From NCBI RefSeq assembly GCF_001434145.1, contig NZ_AZED01000014.1:1-64000 (forward strand): DNA of 64,000 nucleotides. The letters are read 5' to 3'. Source of the DNA: Lentilactobacillus otakiensis DSM 19908 = JCM 15040 (GTDB taxonomy: Bacteria; Bacillota; Bacilli; Lactobacillales; Lactobacillaceae). The translations under genes were made by a program, and so were the position numbers. The notes under the pieces are model-generated. The model ran no database searches. It was not told where the DNA came from and was given only the letters and a program-made list of their open reading frames with translations. This document shows, piece by piece, positions 10,049 to 64,000 of the stretch (position 1 is its first letter; every line of letters starts with the position of its first letter).

Positions 10049-10056
10049 GAAGAACA

Positions 10057-10176
10057 GAGTGCGGACCAAACCGGTTAGCTTCTGAGCATTTATGTAATAA
10101 CGAGTGTTGGTGCGGGGTTGGCACCAATACTCGTTATTGGATAAAGCGGAAGAAGCTGGTTTGGGGAGCACGTTTC
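10057..10176 (+). repeat. palindromic intergenic element, copy A
   Basis: About 120 bp beginning gagtgcgga and ending ggagcacgtttcg. The ends pair with each other through ccaaaccggttagct and agctggtttgg. The centre holds an 18-bp near-perfect hairpin (10096-10133). It shares end motifs with copies near 14.2, 37.6, 43.4 and 51.1 kb. It borders the uvrX promoter. Confidence 0.75.
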
Positions 10177-10279
10177 GGCTAGATAGAAAGGAAGCTCAAA
10201 ATAAAATTATTAGCGAAGTAAAACCACCAAAGAGACTAGGTGGGGTTGGCACCAACACTCATTATTGGATAAAGCAGGA
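10112..10279 (+). repeat. pair of 40-bp direct repeats in the element region
   Basis: The segment at 10112-10151 recurs at 10239-10279 with three or four changes (shared core ggggttggcaccaa...actc.ttattggataaagc). The second copy lacks the left arm of the hairpin, so it looks like a partial duplicate of copy A. The rest of 10177-10286 has no gene I can support. Confidence 0.7.
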
Positions 10280-11460: not shown

Positions 11461-11755
11461 AAAGAAAAAGGCGTCCTTCCAGCTACCCATAAATGGATAG
11501 TTAAAAGGACGCCTAATGCGCGGTACCACCTTAATTTGTAATCCTATTACTAGAATTACCTCACACGTACAGCTTTCGCGATACGCTGACACAATAATGG
11601 GTGCACCCAATGCGATCTACTAAAACTTTGATCACATAGCTCGGAGATGATAATCATCTAAGGACGTAAATTGCTTCACACCAACCAGCAACTCTCTTAT
11701 TACGAACGGTAAATGACGTTTCTCTTCATCGCTTTTTAATTTGAATTTAATGATT
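11461..11755 (-). promoter_or_regulatory. T-box riboswitch leader
   Basis: On the minus strand the leader has the AGAGAG and GGTTGGTGTGAA elements of stem I (near 11690-11670). The conserved T-box AAGGTGGTACCGCG is at 11532-11519. A terminator (ggcgtcctt/aaggacgcc with a T run) spans 11513-11461. T-boxes read uncharged tRNA and are expected to control amino acid genes. By pairing of the lower stem I, the best candidate specifier is ATC (11651-11649, Ile), with TTA a weaker option; this is tentative. The only gene downstream is the hydratase-family gene, preceded by the 65-codon frame. Confidence 0.9.
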
Positions 11756-12836: not shown

Positions 12837-14180
12837 ATGGAAACCAAACAAATTTTAGATACCATTCAGATGATTTCTGAAGAAAAACTCGATATTCGAA
12901 CAATCACTATGGGCATTTCGCTTTTTGACTGTATTGATAGTGATGGTGAGAAAGCTCGCCAAAAGATCTACGACAAATTAACGACCAGTGCCAAAGACTT
13001 GGTCAAAGTCGCAGACCAAATTGAATCCGAATATGGGATTCCAATTGTTAATAAGCGGATCTCGGTAACACCGATTTCAATGATTGCCGCTGCTTGTCAC
13101 GATGATAACTATGTGGCGTATGCCCAGACAATGGAGAAGGCTGCTGAAACTTTGGGTGTTGATTTGATTGGCGGTTTTTCAGCCCTAGTCCAAAAAGGTT
13201 ATCAGTCCGGCGACCGTAAGTTAATTGCATCGATGCCTCAAGCATTGAGTGAAACCAAGCGGGTTTGTGGTTCTGTCAACGTCGGATCAACCCGCGCAGG
13301 AATCAACATGGATGCTGTTAAACAAATGGGACAAATTGTGAAAGATTTGTCTGAAATTGATCCTGTCAGCTGTATGAGTTTGGTAGTATTCGCCAATGCG
13401 GTTGAGGATAATCCATTCATGGCTGGTGCTTTTCATGGTGTTGGGGAAGCGGACAAAGTGATTAACGTCGGTATCAGTGGTCCAGGTGTTGTTAAACGGG
13501 CACTTGAGCAGGTCAAAGGTGAGTCCATTGATACGGTTTCTGAAACGATTAAGAAAACAGCTTTCAAAGTGACTCGAATGGGTCAATTTGTGGGCAATGT
13601 GGCTGCCAAGGCTTTGGACGTCCCGTTCGGAATTGTTGATTTGTCACTGGCACCAACTCCAAGCCAGGGAGACTCGGTAGCAGAAATCCTTGAAGAAATT
13701 GGCTTGGAAAGTGTTGGAGCACCTGGAACGACCGCTGCATTGGCATTATTGAATGATGCCGTTAAAAAAGGCGGCGTGATGGCCTGTGAACACGTTGGCG
13801 GCCTGTCAGGTGCTTTCATCCCAGTTTCAGAAGACAGCGGGATGATTAAGGCAGTTGAACATGGTAATTTGAATTTGGAAAAATTAGAGGCAATGACGGC
13901 GGTCTGCTCAGTGGGACTGGACATGGTTGCGGTTCCTGGGGACACCTCAGCTGAAACGATCAGCGGGATGATCGCCGACGAAGCAGCCATTGGTGTCATT
14001 AACAATAAGACGACCGCAGTCAGAGTTATCCCAGCTAAAGGCAAAAAAGTTGGCGAGCAAATTGATTTCGGCGGTATATTTGGCTATGCACCAGTAATGC
14101 CAGTCAATACCAACAGCCCAGCGAAGTTTGTTGCAAGAGGCGGAAGAATTCCAGCACCGATTCATTCATTCAAAAATTAG
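12837..14180 (+). CDS. UPF0210 / PFL family protein
   Basis: This 447-aa protein has the typical length and start ([25 protein letters not shown]) of UPF0210 (DUF711), distantly glycyl-radical-enzyme-like but without a radical glycine motif. It contains Gly-rich [18 protein letters not shown] and ends with [19 protein letters not shown]. The ribosome-binding site is GGGGGTC. It forms an operon with the ACT protein. Its biochemical role is unknown. The stop codon TAG lies inside a 15-bp tandem duplication that opens repeat element B. Confidence 0.9.
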
Positions 14181-14308
14181 TGTGCGACAAATTAGTGTGC
14201 GACGAGCAACGGGTGATGCGGTGTGTAAAGGGGCGGTGATTAAAATCCTGATTTTGGATTTAAATCACCGCCCCTTTACACGTTAGCATCAGTTGCGTCG
14301 GAGCATAG
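14174..14308 (+). repeat. palindromic intergenic element, copy B
   Basis: It begins with two perfect tandem copies of aaattagtgtgcgac (14174-14188, 14189-14203), the first containing the stop codon of the UPF0210 gene. The core is a 25-bp stem with one mismatch (14223-14247 with 14257-14281) and a nine-base loop. It ends gttgcgtcggagcatagc. There is no T run after the hairpin. Confidence 0.8.
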
Positions 14309-14590
14309 CTCAAAAGCAGAAGGGAGCAGTAGAAAAAATAACAAACGAAAAGTCTGTAGAGTCCAACTCATGACGGAAGAGGAAGCCGAACGTCCTTTGT
14401 TCATCGTTTATGCTTCTTGTTTATGCTGTAGGGCTCTGGGTCGTCGCCAAGTAGGCTAGGCAGGCTTTCAGCCGGTCGTCGGAGCATAGCTCAAAAGCCG
14501 AAGGGAGCAGTAGAAAAAATAACAAACGAAAAGTCTGTAGACTCTAATTCATGATGAAAGAGGCAAATGAGCGCCCTTTGTTTCATCGTT
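14296..14590 (+). repeat. two degenerate element copies as a direct repeat
   Basis: The segment 14296-14409 (cgtcggagcatagctc... to ttcatcgtt) recurs at 14477-14590 with high identity (one change in the first 65 bases). Between them lies the right half of a copy D-like element (cttcttgtttatgctg, gggtcgtcg). The whole 14181-14679 gap is repeat material and contains no gene I can support. Confidence 0.75.
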
Positions 14591-35999: not shown

Positions 36000-36096
36000 T
36001 ATTAATTAGGATTTAAAAACTAAAAATATTTGTTCCTGCCAGATGGCGTTCAATTGCACTGTTGCCGACAGGTATCTTGAAGGGGAGCAAAATATT

Positions 36097-37572
36097 ATGG
36101 CACAAAATGCTGTTGCATTAAAACATTATCAAATGTACATTAACGGTAAGTTCATGGATTCAAAGTCAGGTAACGAAATTACTGTTCTTAATCCATCAAC
36201 TGGTGAAAAGATCTCAACAGTTCCAGCTGCAACTCGTGAAGAGGCTCAAGAAGCTATCGATGCTGCATATGAAGCTGAAAAGTCATGGAAGAAAGTTCCA
36301 GCTGCAACCCGTGGTCAATATTTGCACGACGTTGCTACTGAAGTTCGTAACGAAAAAGATCACTTGGTAGAAATGCTCCAAGAGGAACAAGGTAAGATCA
36401 AGTCATTAGCAACAACTGAAATTATGTTCTCAGCCGATTACTTCGACTACATGGCAAGTGCCGCTCGAACATACGAAGGTGAAATCCTTCAATCTGACAA
36501 CAAGAATGAAAACATCATGATTGCTAAACAACCAATTGGTGTCGCTGCCGGAATCTTACCATGGAACTTCCCATTCTTCCTGATTGCTCGTAAAATGGGT
36601 CCAGCTTTGGTAACTGGTAACACCATCGTTATGAAGCCTTCTTCAGACACACCAAACTTGGGTCTTGAATTTGCTAAGATCTGCGAAAAAGTTGGTATTC
36701 CAAAGGGTGTTGTTAACATTATCTCAGGACGTGGCTCAGTTGTTGGTGATGAACTCACTAAGAACAAGAAGGTCGGCATTATCAGTTTGACTGGTTCTGT
36801 TGATTCTGGTAAACGTGTCATGGCAGGCGCTGCAACTCACATGGCTAAGGTATCACTTGAATTAGGTGGTAAAGCACCAGCCATTGTCTGCAAAGATGCT
36901 GACATTGATTTGGCTGTTCAATCAATCATTGACTCACGTGTTGATAACAATGGACAACTTTGCAACAACTGTGAACGGGTATACGTTCAAGAAGATGTTG
37001 CTGATGAATTCATCAAGAAATTATCAGACAAGATGTCCAAGATCACTGTTGGTAACGTCATGAAAGATGAAAACGTTGGCATGGGTCCACTGATCAACCA
37101 AGAAGCTTTGGACAAGGTTGCCGGAATGGTTGACCGTGCTGTTCAAGCTGGTGGCAAGGTCACAGCCGGTGGTCACAAGTTGAACATCGAAAATGGCTTC
37201 TACTACGAACCAACTGTTATCACGAACGTAAAACAAGATTCAGAAATCGTTCAAGACGAAATCTTTGGCCCAGTACTTCCAGTATTGACCTTTAAGACTT
37301 TGGACGATGCAATTGAAATGGCTAACGATTCTGACTTCGGTTTGACTTCATCAATCTTCACGGAGAACTTGGATAACGCAATGCGTGCTGCCAATGAACT
37401 CGAAGATGGTGAAACTTACATCAACCGATTCAACTTCGAAGCTATGAATGGTTCGCACTCAGGCTGGAAAGAATCAGGTATTGGTGGAGACGATGGTCGT
37501 CACGGTATCGAAGAATTCTTGAATACTCATGTTATCTACCTTCAAGGACATCCGGAGAAGGCACAAGGATAG
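36097..37572 (+). CDS. aldehyde dehydrogenase (AldA/lactaldehyde type)
   Basis: This 491-aa NAD(P)-dependent aldehyde dehydrogenase has the catalytic Cys in NNGQLCNNCERV, Glu in VSLELGGKAP and the NAD motif GSVDSGKRVM. It reads like lactaldehyde (AldA) or succinate-semialdehyde enzymes. ATG 36097 is chosen, with AAGGGGAG nine bases upstream; 18 earlier in-frame codons lack a site. Highly biased codons match the preceding alcohol dehydrogenase. A link to 1,2-propanediol or lactaldehyde metabolism is an inference. Its TAG stop abuts repeat element C. Confidence 0.88.
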   Translation: MAQNAVALKHYQMYINGKFMDSKSGNEITVLNPSTGEKISTVPAATREEAQEAIDAAYEAEKSWKKVPAATRGQYLHDVATEVRNEKDHLVEMLQEEQGKIKSLATTEIMFSADYFDYMASAARTYEGEILQSDNKNENIMIAKQPIGVAAGILPWNFPFFLIARKMGPALVTGNTIVMKPSSDTPNLGLEFAKICEKVGIPKGVVNIISGRGSVVGDELTKNKKVGIISLTGSVDSGKRVMAGAATHMAKVSLELGGKAPAIVCKDADIDLAVQSIIDSRVDNNGQLCNNCERVYVQEDVADEFIKKLSDKMSKITVGNVMKDENVGMGPLINQEALDKVAGMVDRAVQAGGKVTAGGHKLNIENGFYYEPTVITNVKQDSEIVQDEIFGPVLPVLTFKTLDDAIEMANDSDFGLTSSIFTENLDNAMRAANELEDGETYINRFNFEAMNGSHSGWKESGIGGDDGRHGIEEFLNTHVIYLQGHPEKAQG

Positions 37573-37696
37573 AGAGTGCGACAAAGCCCGGTTAACCCCG
37601 GTGTATAAGTAAGAAGGACGAATTGATGAACGCAGTTTGTTCATTGATTTGTCCTTCTTACTTATACGTTAGGGGTTAGGCTGTCGGAGCACGTTT
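37573..37696 (+). repeat. palindromic intergenic element, copy C
   Basis: About 124 bp from gagagtgcgac, directly after the aldehyde dehydrogenase TAG, to gtcggagcacgttt. The central arms gtataagtaagaaggac...tgaac and gttca...gtccttcttacttatac form a stem of about 29 bp with few mismatches. No T run follows. Confidence 0.82.
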
Positions 37697-37728
37697 AATC
37701 CAAATAACAGTGAACCCACCACAAACAA

Positions 37729-43187: not shown

Positions 43188-43313
43188 GGAGAAATCGCCA
43201 TTTAATTTGCTGTTCATCTAGGTCTTCGAATTATGGTTTCTGGATGCACTTTCTTTATTTGGTGGAATTGCTTTGATAATGATTGTGCTTTGAACGAGCC
43301 TTTTACCTAGCAG

Positions 43314-43437
43314 AAACGTGCTTCGACGACCCTGACCCCTACTGCATAAACAAGAAGCATCAACGATGAACAAAGTGCGTTCATCATTGGTGCTTCTTGC
43401 TTATGCTCCGGGGCCACCCGGGGCTCGTCACACTCTA
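43314..43437 (-). repeat. palindromic intergenic element, copy D
   Basis: On the minus strand it begins tagagtgtgacgag, using the PepD stop codon, and ends gtcgtcgaagcacgttt. The arms gcataagcaagaagcacc and gatgcttcttgtttatgc pair around gatgaacgcactttgttcatc. It shares arm sequence with copy C and with the relic at 14380-14430. Bases 43188-43313 hold nothing I can name. Confidence 0.82.
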
Positions 43438-44874
43438 CAATTCTCCGCCCTTCTCAAACGTAGGAACCATCTTCTCAGCTCTCATTAGCAGCAGCTGATG
43501 AAGCAAATCTTTTACATTCTCAGTAATTGCATTGGCAATCTTGTCATTAACCTGATTATGCCAATCAGTCACTTTATCTGCGGCAATATTTTTAAATTCA
43601 GCATCAGCCGTTGCGACGGCTGCTCGGCCGTTGGCAAAGCCAAACTTGCGACTTTCTGACACGGCGGTCATTGCTTCCAAGTCGTGCTCTGCGAAGAACG
43701 GATCTGCGAGCATGGCAACTAATTTGTTCAACCAATAGAAGCTCTCAGTTGTGGTACGCAAGGGGGTGTTCTTGAAGTTTGTTGGCGTATCCGTGCAGTT
43801 CGCAAAGAATGGCACTGGCGCGTTAAATTCGTTGACGCCTTCAGCCAACCAATGAATGGCCGCATGTTCGGCAGGGAAGTCGGGACGGATTTGCAGGATA
43901 TGCATCTCTTGGTTCCGGTTCATACCGATCGGGCGATAACGCAGTCGTGATTCTTCGGTACCGGTTTTGCCATATGGGTCAAAATCGGTGCCCTGATAAT
44001 GGCTGCTCAAGAAGAAGGCAATGTCTTCAACTGAGATCAAATGATCGGCAATTCTGGTAAATGGCATGGTCCGACTTTCTGGATCCTGCTCAATTTCAGG
44101 GTTAAACATCTTTTGGCCGTACCAAACACGAGGGGTGTTGTAGTAATGATCAGCCTGAGTGTCCTCACCAAAAATATCACGGAAGTTAAAGCCGGAACGG
44201 GCCTTGTTCAAATGATTCTTTTCAGCGAATTCTTTCAAGTCGGTGCTATACATATAGTGGTCATGATCGTTGAAATCAATTTCTTGGATGCCGGTTTGGT
44301 TAGGTGCTACCGCATATGAATCGTCAGGGATGCGTTCAGCCGCCCAATGATGGCCGCCAACTGTTTCAAAGTACCAGACTTCATCAGAGTCTGAAAAAGC
44401 AATGCCGTTACTTTCACAGGTCCCAAATTTGGTGACCAGTTCGCCCAAGCGTTTAACGCCTTCGCGGGCATTGTGAATATAGGGCAGAACACATGTCAGC
44501 ATGGCTTCTTCGCCGATACCTTCCATGACCAGTGGATCAAGGCCCAGCATGGTTGTGTTGGTAAATTCGGTTTCGGTTGAACTCATGGCAACATTATCAG
44601 TGTTGATTCCCGATTCACCCCAGAGCCCATCGCTGACATCAGCGTTGGGAGTCTCAGTATAGCGAAGTGGATGATCCGGCAATTTTACCCGAAATTGGTT
44701 AAAAGTCGAAATATATTCACTGGGTTGTTCTTCGGGATTGACGACAACAAAACGTTTGGCGTTAATACCGCCACCAGCGTCTTCGTTACGAGCAATCATG
44801 GTGGAACCGTCGACAGTTGCGTTTTTACCAGCTAAAAATGCGGTACAGCTGGAGACATTCTGAAATTCATTCAA
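43435..44874 (-). CDS. pepD: C69 family dipeptidase PepD
   Basis: This 479-aa N-terminal-nucleophile dipeptidase has a nucleophile Cys in SSCTAFLAGKNATVDGSTMIARNEDAG (Cys10), probably exposed by propeptide removal. The family WGESGINTDNVAMSSTET and GVKRLGELVTKFGTCESNGIAFSD regions are intact. TTG 44874 is taken as start, because AAGGA lies eight bases upstream and the nearby ATG is out of frame. PepD enzymes cut a broad range of dipeptides in the cytoplasm. Its stop codon is the first base triplet of repeat D. Confidence 0.9.
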   Translation of the reverse strand: MNEFQNVSSCTAFLAGKNATVDGSTMIARNEDAGGGINAKRFVVVNPEEQPSEYISTFNQFRVKLPDHPLRYTETPNADVSDGLWGESGINTDNVAMSSTETEFTNTTMLGLDPLVMEGIGEEAMLTCVLPYIHNAREGVKRLGELVTKFGTCESNGIAFSDSDEVWYFETVGGHHWAAERIPDDSYAVAPNQTGIQEIDFNDHDHYMYSTDLKEFAEKNHLNKARSGFNFRDIFGEDTQADHYYNTPRVWYGQKMFNPEIEQDPESRTMPFTRIADHLISVEDIAFFLSSHYQGTDFDPYGKTGTEESRLRYRPIGMNRNQEMHILQIRPDFPAEHAAIHWLAEGVNEFNAPVPFFANCTDTPTNFKNTPLRTTTESFYWLNKLVAMLADPFFAEHDLEAMTAVSESRKFGFANGRAAVATADAEFKNIAADKVTDWHNQVNDKIANAITENVKDLLHQLLLMRAEKMVPTFEKGGEL

Positions 44875-50042: not shown

Positions 50043-50219
50043 TTAATTTCTCTCCTCAAATGCAAAAATGTTTCTGAATAAATCTGTCAACCAAAATTGT
50101 ATCCTTGAAAGAACCGATTAGTCAAACTTTCTCGATTAAACGGGGATTATTTACCAGTCGAATCTTATTTTCGAATATAATGTCTATAGAAGGTTAAAAA
50201 CGAAAGACAGGTGAATCAC

Positions 50220-50984
50220 TTGGCAAATCAACCCTTAGTATTTGATTATCAAGCCGCCAAAGGCAAGCCGGAAAATATTCGGCATCCGGAAGGGTACTGT
50301 CCGTTTTGCGATGTTGCCCATTTAACGAATATTCTTGCCCAAGATGAAGATCGAATTTGGCTGGTCAACAAATTTAGAACCCTTGAAGATACGCTGCAAA
50401 CTGTTGTGATTGAATCCAGCGACCATCTTGGTGGTCCCTCAACATATTCAATCGAACAGAATCGTAACGTATTTGAATTTGCTTTCAAGTGCTGGCATCA
50501 GATGATCATTTCCAATAAGTATCGAAGCACCATCATGTACAAGAATTATGGCCCACTGTCTGGCGGCAGTTTGCGTCATCCACATTTTCAAATTGTTGGT
50601 CTCAACGATTACGATGTCTATGAAAATGTCGACATCAGCAATTTTACCGGTGTCGAGGTAATCAATGATGATCATTGTGAAATCACGCTCTCAACCCACC
50701 CAATTATCGGTTTTGTAGAAATTAATATTGCCATTGCCGAGGTCGGTCACATTAATGACTTGGCCGATGCAGTGCGGGTAATCGTCAAATACCTGTTGAA
50801 TGATTATATGGGCGGCCGACTATCTTCGTACAACTTATTTTTCTACGAAATGGCTGACAAATTCTATTGCAAAATTGTGCCGCGTTACGCGACTTCGCCG
50901 TATTTTGTTGGCTACAAAATTGCCCAAGTGCAAAATGATGCTCGGTTGGAAAAAATTGCCGCTGATATTCGTGAAAGACTATAA
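50220..50984 (+). CDS. DUF4931 GalT-like protein
   Basis: This 254-aa HIT/GalT-superfamily protein has a CPFC zinc pair (about 28-31), the catalytic-type SLRHPHFQIVG (about 119-129, cf. HPHGQ in GalT) and the late CKIVPRYATSPYFVGYKI typical of DUF4931. It may transfer nucleotides or phosphates, but the true substrate is unknown. I take TTG 50220, with AGGTGA five bases upstream; GTG 50211 overlaps that site. Repeat element E follows it by about 30 bases. Confidence 0.83.
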   Translation: MANQPLVFDYQAAKGKPENIRHPEGYCPFCDVAHLTNILAQDEDRIWLVNKFRTLEDTLQTVVIESSDHLGGPSTYSIEQNRNVFEFAFKCWHQMIISNKYRSTIMYKNYGPLSGGSLRHPHFQIVGLNDYDVYENVDISNFTGVEVINDDHCEITLSTHPIIGFVEINIAIAEVGHINDLADAVRVIVKYLLNDYMGGRLSSYNLFFYEMADKFYCKIVPRYATSPYFVGYKIAQVQNDARLEKIAADIRERL

Positions 50985-51014: not shown

Positions 51015-51135
51015 GAGAGTGCGAAAAAAGGCGTTTTGATCCCAGAATTTAAGGGACTAAACCAATTATTCCTGATTCTGGAATGGTTGGTTTAGTCCCT
51101 TAAATGGCTGGGATCAGCCGATTTGAGCACGTTTT
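51015..51135 (+). repeat. palindromic intergenic element, copy E
   Basis: About 121 bp from gagagtgcga to gagcacgttttgg. The core pairs atcccag..tttaagggactaaacca with tggtttagtcccttaaa..ctgggat. The ends match copies A-D, but the arms are unrelated to theirs. Confidence 0.8.
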
Positions 51136-51158
51136 GGCTACGTAATAATGAAACCACT

Positions 51159-51198
51159 AAAAAGGCTGAGATAAAAGTTTGCACTTTTGTCCCAGCCT
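51159..51198 (-). terminator. terminator of the baeRF gene
   Basis: The stem aggctgggacaaaagtg/cttttatctcagcct on the minus strand is followed by five T. Confidence 0.85.
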
Positions 51199-51226
51199 CC
51201 TTATTCAGGCAGAATTTGATCGTTGT

Positions 51227-63639: not shown

Positions 63640-63653
63640 ATATTTGTTACTAA

Positions 63654-64000
63654 TGGAGTCGGCGGGAGTTGAACCCGCGTCCGAGCATATCGCCACCTAG
63701 ATATCTACGTTCATAGATCTATTATTTAAATTTCACCAACTGAAACGCCATAAATCAAGGCACCCACAGCAGGCTAACCTGATTAGTCTCTTCAGTCCGC
63801 TTCAGGTGGGAGCAAACTGCGTGAGCCCATTAAATTTAAGACCCAGATCTAACCCATGGGCGAAGTTAGGAGGATCTACGTTAAGCGCTTATTAGGCAGC
63901 TAAAGCGTAAGAATTGTTATTATTTTTTGCAGTTATAATAAACTGGGCGGTTTTACGTGGCGCTGCACGAAACGCAATCCAGACTCAACCTATACCCGTC
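63654..64000 (-). ncRNA. ssrA: tmRNA, 5' end beyond the window
   Basis: On the minus strand the 3' end is tRNA-like (GGTTCAACTCCCGCC then GACTCCA with encoded CCA at 63654-63656). The tag frame runs from 63930 to 63892 and reads AKNNNNSYALAA, with resume codon GCA and tandem TAA stops. The ALAA end is the usual protease signal. The pseudoknot region lies between. The 5' acceptor half is outside the window. tmRNA with SmpB rescues stalled ribosomes. Confidence 0.96.

Follow-up and report, generated by a model that had tools for sequence, protein, structure and literature searches.

Dispersed structured RNAs of Lentilactobacillus and related lactobacilli with long helices that change on both sides

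In the window, the whole 64,000-nucleotide stretch of Lentilactobacillus otakiensis DNA that was analysed, five elements of about 120 bases have conserved ends and enclose a long hairpin, the arms of which are complementary within a copy and differ from one copy to the next. How long RNA stems can drift in sequence while staying paired is an old question. On balance we favour, by a little, the reading that these are dispersed, probably mobile-derived structured RNAs, shaped by arm-to-arm template switching together with RNA-level selection, which would have a role at mRNA 3′ ends.

The window copies and the family to which they belong

The five copies described in the earlier note are all real, and its placement of them holds apart from the left limit of copy B, which lies at 14194 rather than 14174. 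Each folds into one long hairpin, as had been described (A, B, C and E as the sense strand, D as the other strand). All five are among the 13 sequences from which the covariance model was built, so that the model matches listed here hold by construction.

10056..10186, + strand: copy A, P1 subtype GTGCGGA../..GGGAGCAC (covariance-model match and fold)
14194..14321, + strand: copy B, subtype AGTGTGCGAC ... GGAGCATAGCTC, with a tail of another kind (covariance-model match)
37573..37707, + strand: copy C including its tail (covariance-model match)
37576..37582, + strand: copy C, 5′ strand of P1, GTGCGAC
37602..37632, + strand: copy C, 5′ arm of P4, a helix of 31 bp
37638..37668, + strand: copy C, 3′ arm of P4 (fold)
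37672..37682, + strand: copy C, 3′ strands of P3 and P2 (covariation alignment)
37683..37692, + strand: copy C, 3′ strand of P1, GTC GGA GCAC, including a 3-nt bulge
43303..43436, − strand: copy D (covariance-model match)
51016..51145, + strand: copy E, E-type subfamily (covariance-model match)

The first base of copy C abuts the TAG stop of the ORF at 36043-37572, a putative aldehyde-dehydrogenase-like gene (ALDH), and the TAG stop of the ORF at 43435-44874, putatively dipeptidase-like and labelled pepD here, includes the first bases of copy D; both gene assignments are judged from reading alone. The 5′ end of copy B lies 13 nt after the stop of the ORF at 12837-14180, with a 15-nt duplication of its left end in the 20 bases 5′ of it, and copy E starts 31 nt past the stop of the ORF at 50211-50984. 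Copy E is followed, at 51146-51220, by a further hairpin (GGCTGNGRCAAAAG...CTTTTGTCCCAGCC type), which is also found behind many other E-type copies; several E-type copies stand before a divergent ORF, and E-type copies may be separate small RNAs. The window also contains a tRNA gene cluster (1-1097), a T-box leader (11502-11738, − strand) and a tmRNA that is cut by the window end (63651-64000, − strand).

The right end that the copies had been said to share, GTCGNAGCACGTTT, is present with at most two mismatches in C and D, and A, B and E depart from it. The count in the window (2 found against 1.13 expected by chance) is at chance level, and proof of a family comes from the genome rather than from the window by itself. 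Genome-wide, the exact two-ended pattern, the search of which the earlier note had proposed, occurs 10 times against 0 for a reversed-pattern control, and the covariance model (13 copies) identifies at least 123 copies in the 2.35 Mb genome at E ≤0.01, a lower bound obtained by scoring the best 150 of 760 candidates. With the best 150 candidates scored in each, the full genomes of L. rapi and L. dabitei contain at least 142 and at least 136 copies, giving more than 100 in each of three Lentilactobacillus genomes.

The family is thus a large one, consisting of repeats of about 120 bases distributed across lactobacilli and often situated right behind stop codons. Extension of the search to related Lactobacillaceae, also suggested at the outset, yielded matches at 1e-4 in 124 of 251 genomes and 23 of 40 genera. 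In a sample of 60 genomes that included the genome of the window, 26 match, all of them in Lactobacillaceae, and the 23 genomes of other families in that sample gave 0 matches. Among 118 genomes sampled from the order, 10 match at 1e-6 (2 in Lactobacillaceae and 8 in other families); the ends of the 18 matches in those 8 genomes are identical or alike (AGAGTGYGAC ... GGAGCACGTTT), and most of these matches have a different interior. Two blast matches with such ends were inspected in an Aerococcus tenax record, and neither sits behind an annotated co-oriented CDS. One genome from another family of the order (G331) carries seven copies (L315-L321), six with nearly the same core and one (L316) that differs, as after a recent expansion, in contrast to the diverged Lentilactobacillus cores. 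A protein search with the window pepD returned 46 loci, the closest being from Lentilactobacillus (93% identity in L. sunkii and L. kefiri), and named loci with matches to the element also come from Secundilactobacillus, Companilactobacillus, Lacticaseibacillus and Liquorilactobacillus.

Copies also reside on plasmids. In Levilactobacillus brevis, one copy is found on six plasmid records, 4 nt after an MgtC-family gene in all six, and is identical in five of these and altered by 2 base differences in the sixth. Another query matched 18 plasmid records from six genera, so that the family occurs on plasmids in several genera from breweries; the match overlaps an ABC transporter ATP-binding protein in 14 of these records and an ABC permease in 1. 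On two brewery-associated plasmids (L307, 2012-2034; L309, 1512-1534), the annotated ABC transporter CDS stops 23 nt inside the element, which therefore supplies the final residues of the annotated protein. A copy in an L. buchneri record immediately follows the TAA of a hypothetical gene. Copy A and one rapi copy, each used as a query against plasmids, gave 0 matches. A phage origin was rejected, there being no match for one copy in 50,697 phage records.

The earlier note knew of no named family of this kind, and this holds for Rfam 15, in which the whole window and 9 further loci match no family at gathering score (the copies give only sub-threshold matches of animal microRNA type), and for the papers listed in literature searches on lactobacillus repeats, palindromes, hairpins and RNA motifs, of which none describes the family in its title or abstract. 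The family is apparently unnamed, and is compared here with BOX and YPAL by description rather than by sequence. EFAR of Enterococcus faecalis, a possible relative from the same order of bacteria, is a group of modular mini-elements that are rich in stem-loops and lie near gene 3′ ends. REP elements were rejected as a match, being described as palindromes of 20-40 bp (PMC3733652), versus 120-135 here. The relevant passage of a systematic stem-loop survey names L. johnsonii as its sole lactobacillus (PMC2267715).

BOX, RUP and SPRITE of Streptococcus pneumoniae are small dispersed repeats with low current mobility; some BOX copies are transcribed, and in 36 instances the gene upstream ends on a stop codon that BOX provides (PMC3049150). 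By description, the Lentilactobacillus element resembles BOX and RUP in being dispersed and in its paired ends, and BOX in its contact with stop codons; BOX, however, is composed of boxA/B/C modules, whereas the present element has a variable but paired core and lies mostly in the sense direction behind stops (PMC3049150). Also comparable by description is YPAL/RU-2 of Yersinia, a palindromic repeat of about 168 bp with internal inverted repeats, which is reported to be expressed with upstream genes (“co-translated” in that source), with a presumed effect on the stability of their RNA (PMC2229807). The host group of YPAL differs, and YPAL has target duplications of 3-26 bp, unlike the present element, for which none is established (PMC2229807).

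Anatomy, covariation and the strand under selection

The element is approximately 120-135 nt long and comprises four nested helices, P1-P4. In the consensus, P1, formed by GTGYGAC pairing with GTC-NNA-GCAC and including a 3-nt bulge, is followed by an AA bulge, P2, a CGGNT stretch, P3, a second internal loop and the long hairpin P4, which measures 26-31 bp in 72 of 103 copies when G·U pairs are allowed. The 5′ boundary is sharp, and a weaker tail extends some 20 nt beyond GTTT, with tails differing along with the type of P1. About a dozen copies harbour a second small module, CCAAGTAGGCTAGGC...GGCCGTCG, which frequently interrupts P1 at its GTCG (for example G000:C4:189617, C4:247305, C15:43201, C15:100731 and C4:229219).

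P1-P4 covary beyond controls. In a MAFFT alignment of the 13 copies, the very sequences on which the structure was drawn, 83.4% of 529 cells are paired, versus 65.1% when shuffled and 33.6-43.0% with slid partners; 30 of 41 pairs change on both sides, and the covariation score is 0.503 against 0.206 in shuffles (0 of 500 shuffles). P1 is nearly invariant in this set, its four outer pairs having 0 two-sided changes, and varies in the larger one. There, in an alignment of 86 distinct rows that was fitted to the model and is thus biased toward structure, 95.1% of cells are paired versus 63.2% in the control.

For the hairpin tests, 103 of the 123 copies in the genome were used, with 20 left out for length or score. 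The identity of each hairpin to its nearest neighbour has a median of 0.85 and a range of 0.60-0.97, which rules out wholly unrelated arms. The earlier proposal that arms are mostly unrelated between copies survives only in part: the arms group into diverged subfamilies, several of which are sampled by the five window copies.

These hairpins were located by Watson-Crick matches only, with G·T and A·C mismatches scored alike. Because a G·T on one strand is an A·C on the other, correction of, or selection on, double-stranded DNA should treat the two alike. On the sense strand, the long helices of the 103 copies from the genome of the window contain 253 G·T and 15 A·C mismatches (binomial P 3e-57). 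The corresponding counts are 160 and 7 in rapi (110 copies, P 3e-39) and 138 and 4 in dabitei (80 copies, P 3e-36), for which 110 of 128 and 80 of 91 model matches were used after removal of weak, opposite-strand, duplicated and cut ones. The asymmetry is weaker in other genera (26 G·T and 9 A·C, 18 copies, P 0.003). The great excess of G·T over A·C indicates that the sense RNA is what selection sees, and the sense-strand RNA is most likely the molecule that is kept paired. With both covariation and one-strand tolerance of G·U observed, the element is a structured sense-strand RNA. Selection for structure, which had been raised from the window alone, thus receives strong support, the one-sided tolerance being found in 103, 110 and 80 copies of three genomes.

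Placement behind stop codons

Gene positions were taken from a crude ORF caller. By this measure, the upstream ORF is co-oriented with the element in 93 of 123 copies and on the opposite strand in 30. In the genome of the window, 74 of 123 copies have the stop of a same-strand ORF between −10 and +12 nt from their 5′ end, as do 46 of 108 in rapi and 34 of 78 in dabitei; the antisense control gives 1, 5 and 4, respectively. Most frequent are distances of −2 and −1 in rapi and dabitei and of −2 in the genome of the window; at these, the stop codon includes the first bases of the element. The 49 of 123 copies without such a stop include many of the 19 that were picked as E-type by sequence.

A stable hairpin behind genes is what an unusual transcription terminator might look like, but we regard this reading as very improbable. 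The sense strand continues with GTTT and then mostly C, in keeping with the earlier remark that no T run follows the hairpins, and 46 of 123 copies are flanked by same-strand ORFs on both sides. An intrinsic terminator in particular was rejected on inspection of 79 copies holding C[AG]TTT, in which the next base is C in 66% and there is no U run. Terminator-like signals behind copies are in no clear excess either (12 of 107, versus 7 in the reversed control and 1 in the shuffled one).

From its position after the stop codon, the long helix may influence the mRNA 3′ end, either by impeding 3′-exonucleases or by offering a double-strand-specific RNase a place to cut. Such a role in mRNA stability is suggested by the place and form of the element, and accords with what is described for other hairpin repeats (PMC2229807, PMC3049150). 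In addition, translation termination may compete with the folding of P1, which lies where the terminating ribosome sits. Given at least 123 copies in a 2.35 Mb genome, and others on plasmids of several brewery genera, any effect on mRNA stability would be broad.

That the copies once spread as a non-autonomous element, their insertions behind stop codons being either tolerated or targeted, is suggested by the copy number, the plasmid copies and the occupancy of sites, which differs between species. The unusual amplification route that the earlier note offered as the other option may likewise have played a part. Behind the pepD stop, where presence and absence were compared between species as the earlier note had advised, 4 of 14 species (that of the window, sunkii, kefiri and parabuchneri) have copies, which differ from one another; the ten others have no sense-direction copy, and in parakefiri an opposite-strand copy follows the convergent gene. 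Of 44 rapi copies with an upstream flank found in the compared dabitei DNA, 36 are matched by a dabitei copy at the corresponding position, and up to 8 may lack one. Filled and empty pepD and ALDH sites were compared by eye; the flanks are too diverged, the element tail is not separable from the target, and no target-site duplication is established. A candidate TA/TAA duplication at the pepD stop codon was dropped, as unrelated copies show these letters in their conserved tail.

The high copy number, the plasmid copies, the filled and empty orthologous sites and the paired ends would also befit a plain, MITE-like transposable element that is non-autonomous and has no host role, its place at stop codons reflecting merely what selection tolerates. 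We give this a real but minority chance: the peak at −2..−1 and the prevalence of the sense orientation (74 versus 1) are not easily ascribed to tolerance alone, and RNA pairing is kept at sites common to two species.

Change of the long helix at orthologous sites

Sites compared between rapi and dabitei are mostly conserved in position but altered in the long helix, both sides of which change together. From the 36 orthologous pairs, 2 were removed for flank alignments below 200 nt, leaving 34, and a further 18 for arms identity ≤0.75; some of the changed sites are tandem arrays that gain or lose units, and the strict count was accordingly limited to the 16 pairs above 0.75. The upstream flanks of these 16 have a mean identity of 0.95, and their 392 stem pairs divide into 354 without change, 15 with a change on one side and 23 with changes on both. 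When the changes of one arm are shuffled within each pair, two-sided changes average 3.99, with a maximum of 11 in 10,000. At an identity threshold of 0.70 there are 39 two-sided and 22 one-sided changes (shuffled mean 8.69); at 0.85, the strictest threshold, the two are equal at 13 (shuffled mean 1.93). One pair, L288/L271, has three double changes and zero single ones.

The explanation that we prefer would run as follows. The hairpin would form in single-stranded DNA during replication, allowing a mutation or short tract of one arm to be copied into the other, and RNA-level selection would remove unmatched states, such that sequence drifts while pairing and length stay. Template switching can create and maintain RNA hairpins (PMC8794818), and the multi-base compensatory stem changes described there resemble those seen here. 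That study reconstructs ancestral histories of RNA genes, whereas here more than 100 parallel loci per genome permit orthologous and paralogous comparison (PMC8794818). A bolder form of the idea, which we put forward only tentatively, is that the long helix lacks a sequence identity, the letters of one arm being repeatedly rewritten from the other, so that each locus would hold a private, matched duplex of near-fixed length behind a stop. If true, the family would document arm-to-arm template switching in bacteria naturally and on a massively parallel scale, and might also give each mRNA a 3′ tag of its own.

Template switching is read from its outcome, and rapid compensation under strong selection could account for part of that outcome. 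Ordinary compensatory evolution, proceeding by single point mutations through G·U intermediates under strong selection for an RNA helix, would fit the strong one-sided tolerance of G·U, and the 16 transitions among the 23 double changes could pass through G·U. The remaining 7 are transversion pairs, however, which cannot take that route, and two-sided changes outnumber one-sided ones (23 versus 15) at an upstream divergence of about 5%. As a full explanation we consider it rather doubtful.

The arms differ more at other sites, identity being ≤0.75 in 18 of the 34 pairs; it is below 0.9 in 25 of the 34 overall. Some sites, L222:129 and L242:10918 among them, keep the end helix around a wholly different core. 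L. sunkii and L. kefiri have a common 3′ flank and differing cores at the pepD site, and at the ALDH site, the genome of the window and L. sunkii have common flanks and differ in the middle of the hairpin. These whole-core differences, some of which arise by gain or loss of tandem units, point to recombination too. They would be expected from ectopic gene conversion, in which copies overwrite each other by way of their conserved ends and the core is swapped as a cassette with its pairing ready-made. Mosaics between paralogues point the same way: C8:43303 and C4:134256 are 0.94 identical in their outer parts but 0.65 in the hairpin, and the reverse is seen for C6:204539 and C8:263966 (hairpin 0.92, outer parts 0.74). 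A donor, on the other hand, did not emerge. When six changed dabitei cores were searched as one joined query in both genomes, the best 40 of 48 and the best 40 of 55 candidates included no second close full-length copy; the matches were the cores themselves, the orthologous sites (85-88%) and partial 3′ copies, with nothing else above 83% over 52 nt. Since dabitei is a draft genome of more than 220 contigs and only the best candidates were scored, a donor may have been missed. Moreover, for several cores the orthologue is a closer match than any compared paralogue, even though 3-5 compensated pairs separate core and orthologue. Gene conversion may well add to wholesale core exchange, although it seems unlikely to be the general explanation.

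Each genome holds more than 100 copies, many of them with a counterpart in a sister species, and two-sided changes exceed one-sided ones, so that the resequencing of strains should separate template switching from gene conversion and from stepwise compensation.

Partial and tandem copies occur as well. At the site of L288/L271, tandem 3′-half copies lie downstream in rapi and dabitei (L202 and L197, respectively), starting near the hairpin loop, as if truncated at the 5′ side; the dabitei 3′-half copy retains the rapi arm letters, unlike the adjacent full copy. Among eight tandem arrays inspected, at least four (L014, L023, L034 and L044) share one P1 letter type across both copies, and L052 does not. 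There are also copies of about 50 nt that have no long hairpin (G000:C15:36690-36738, C4:121480-121528 and C19:4614-4663; L147, 11441-11489).
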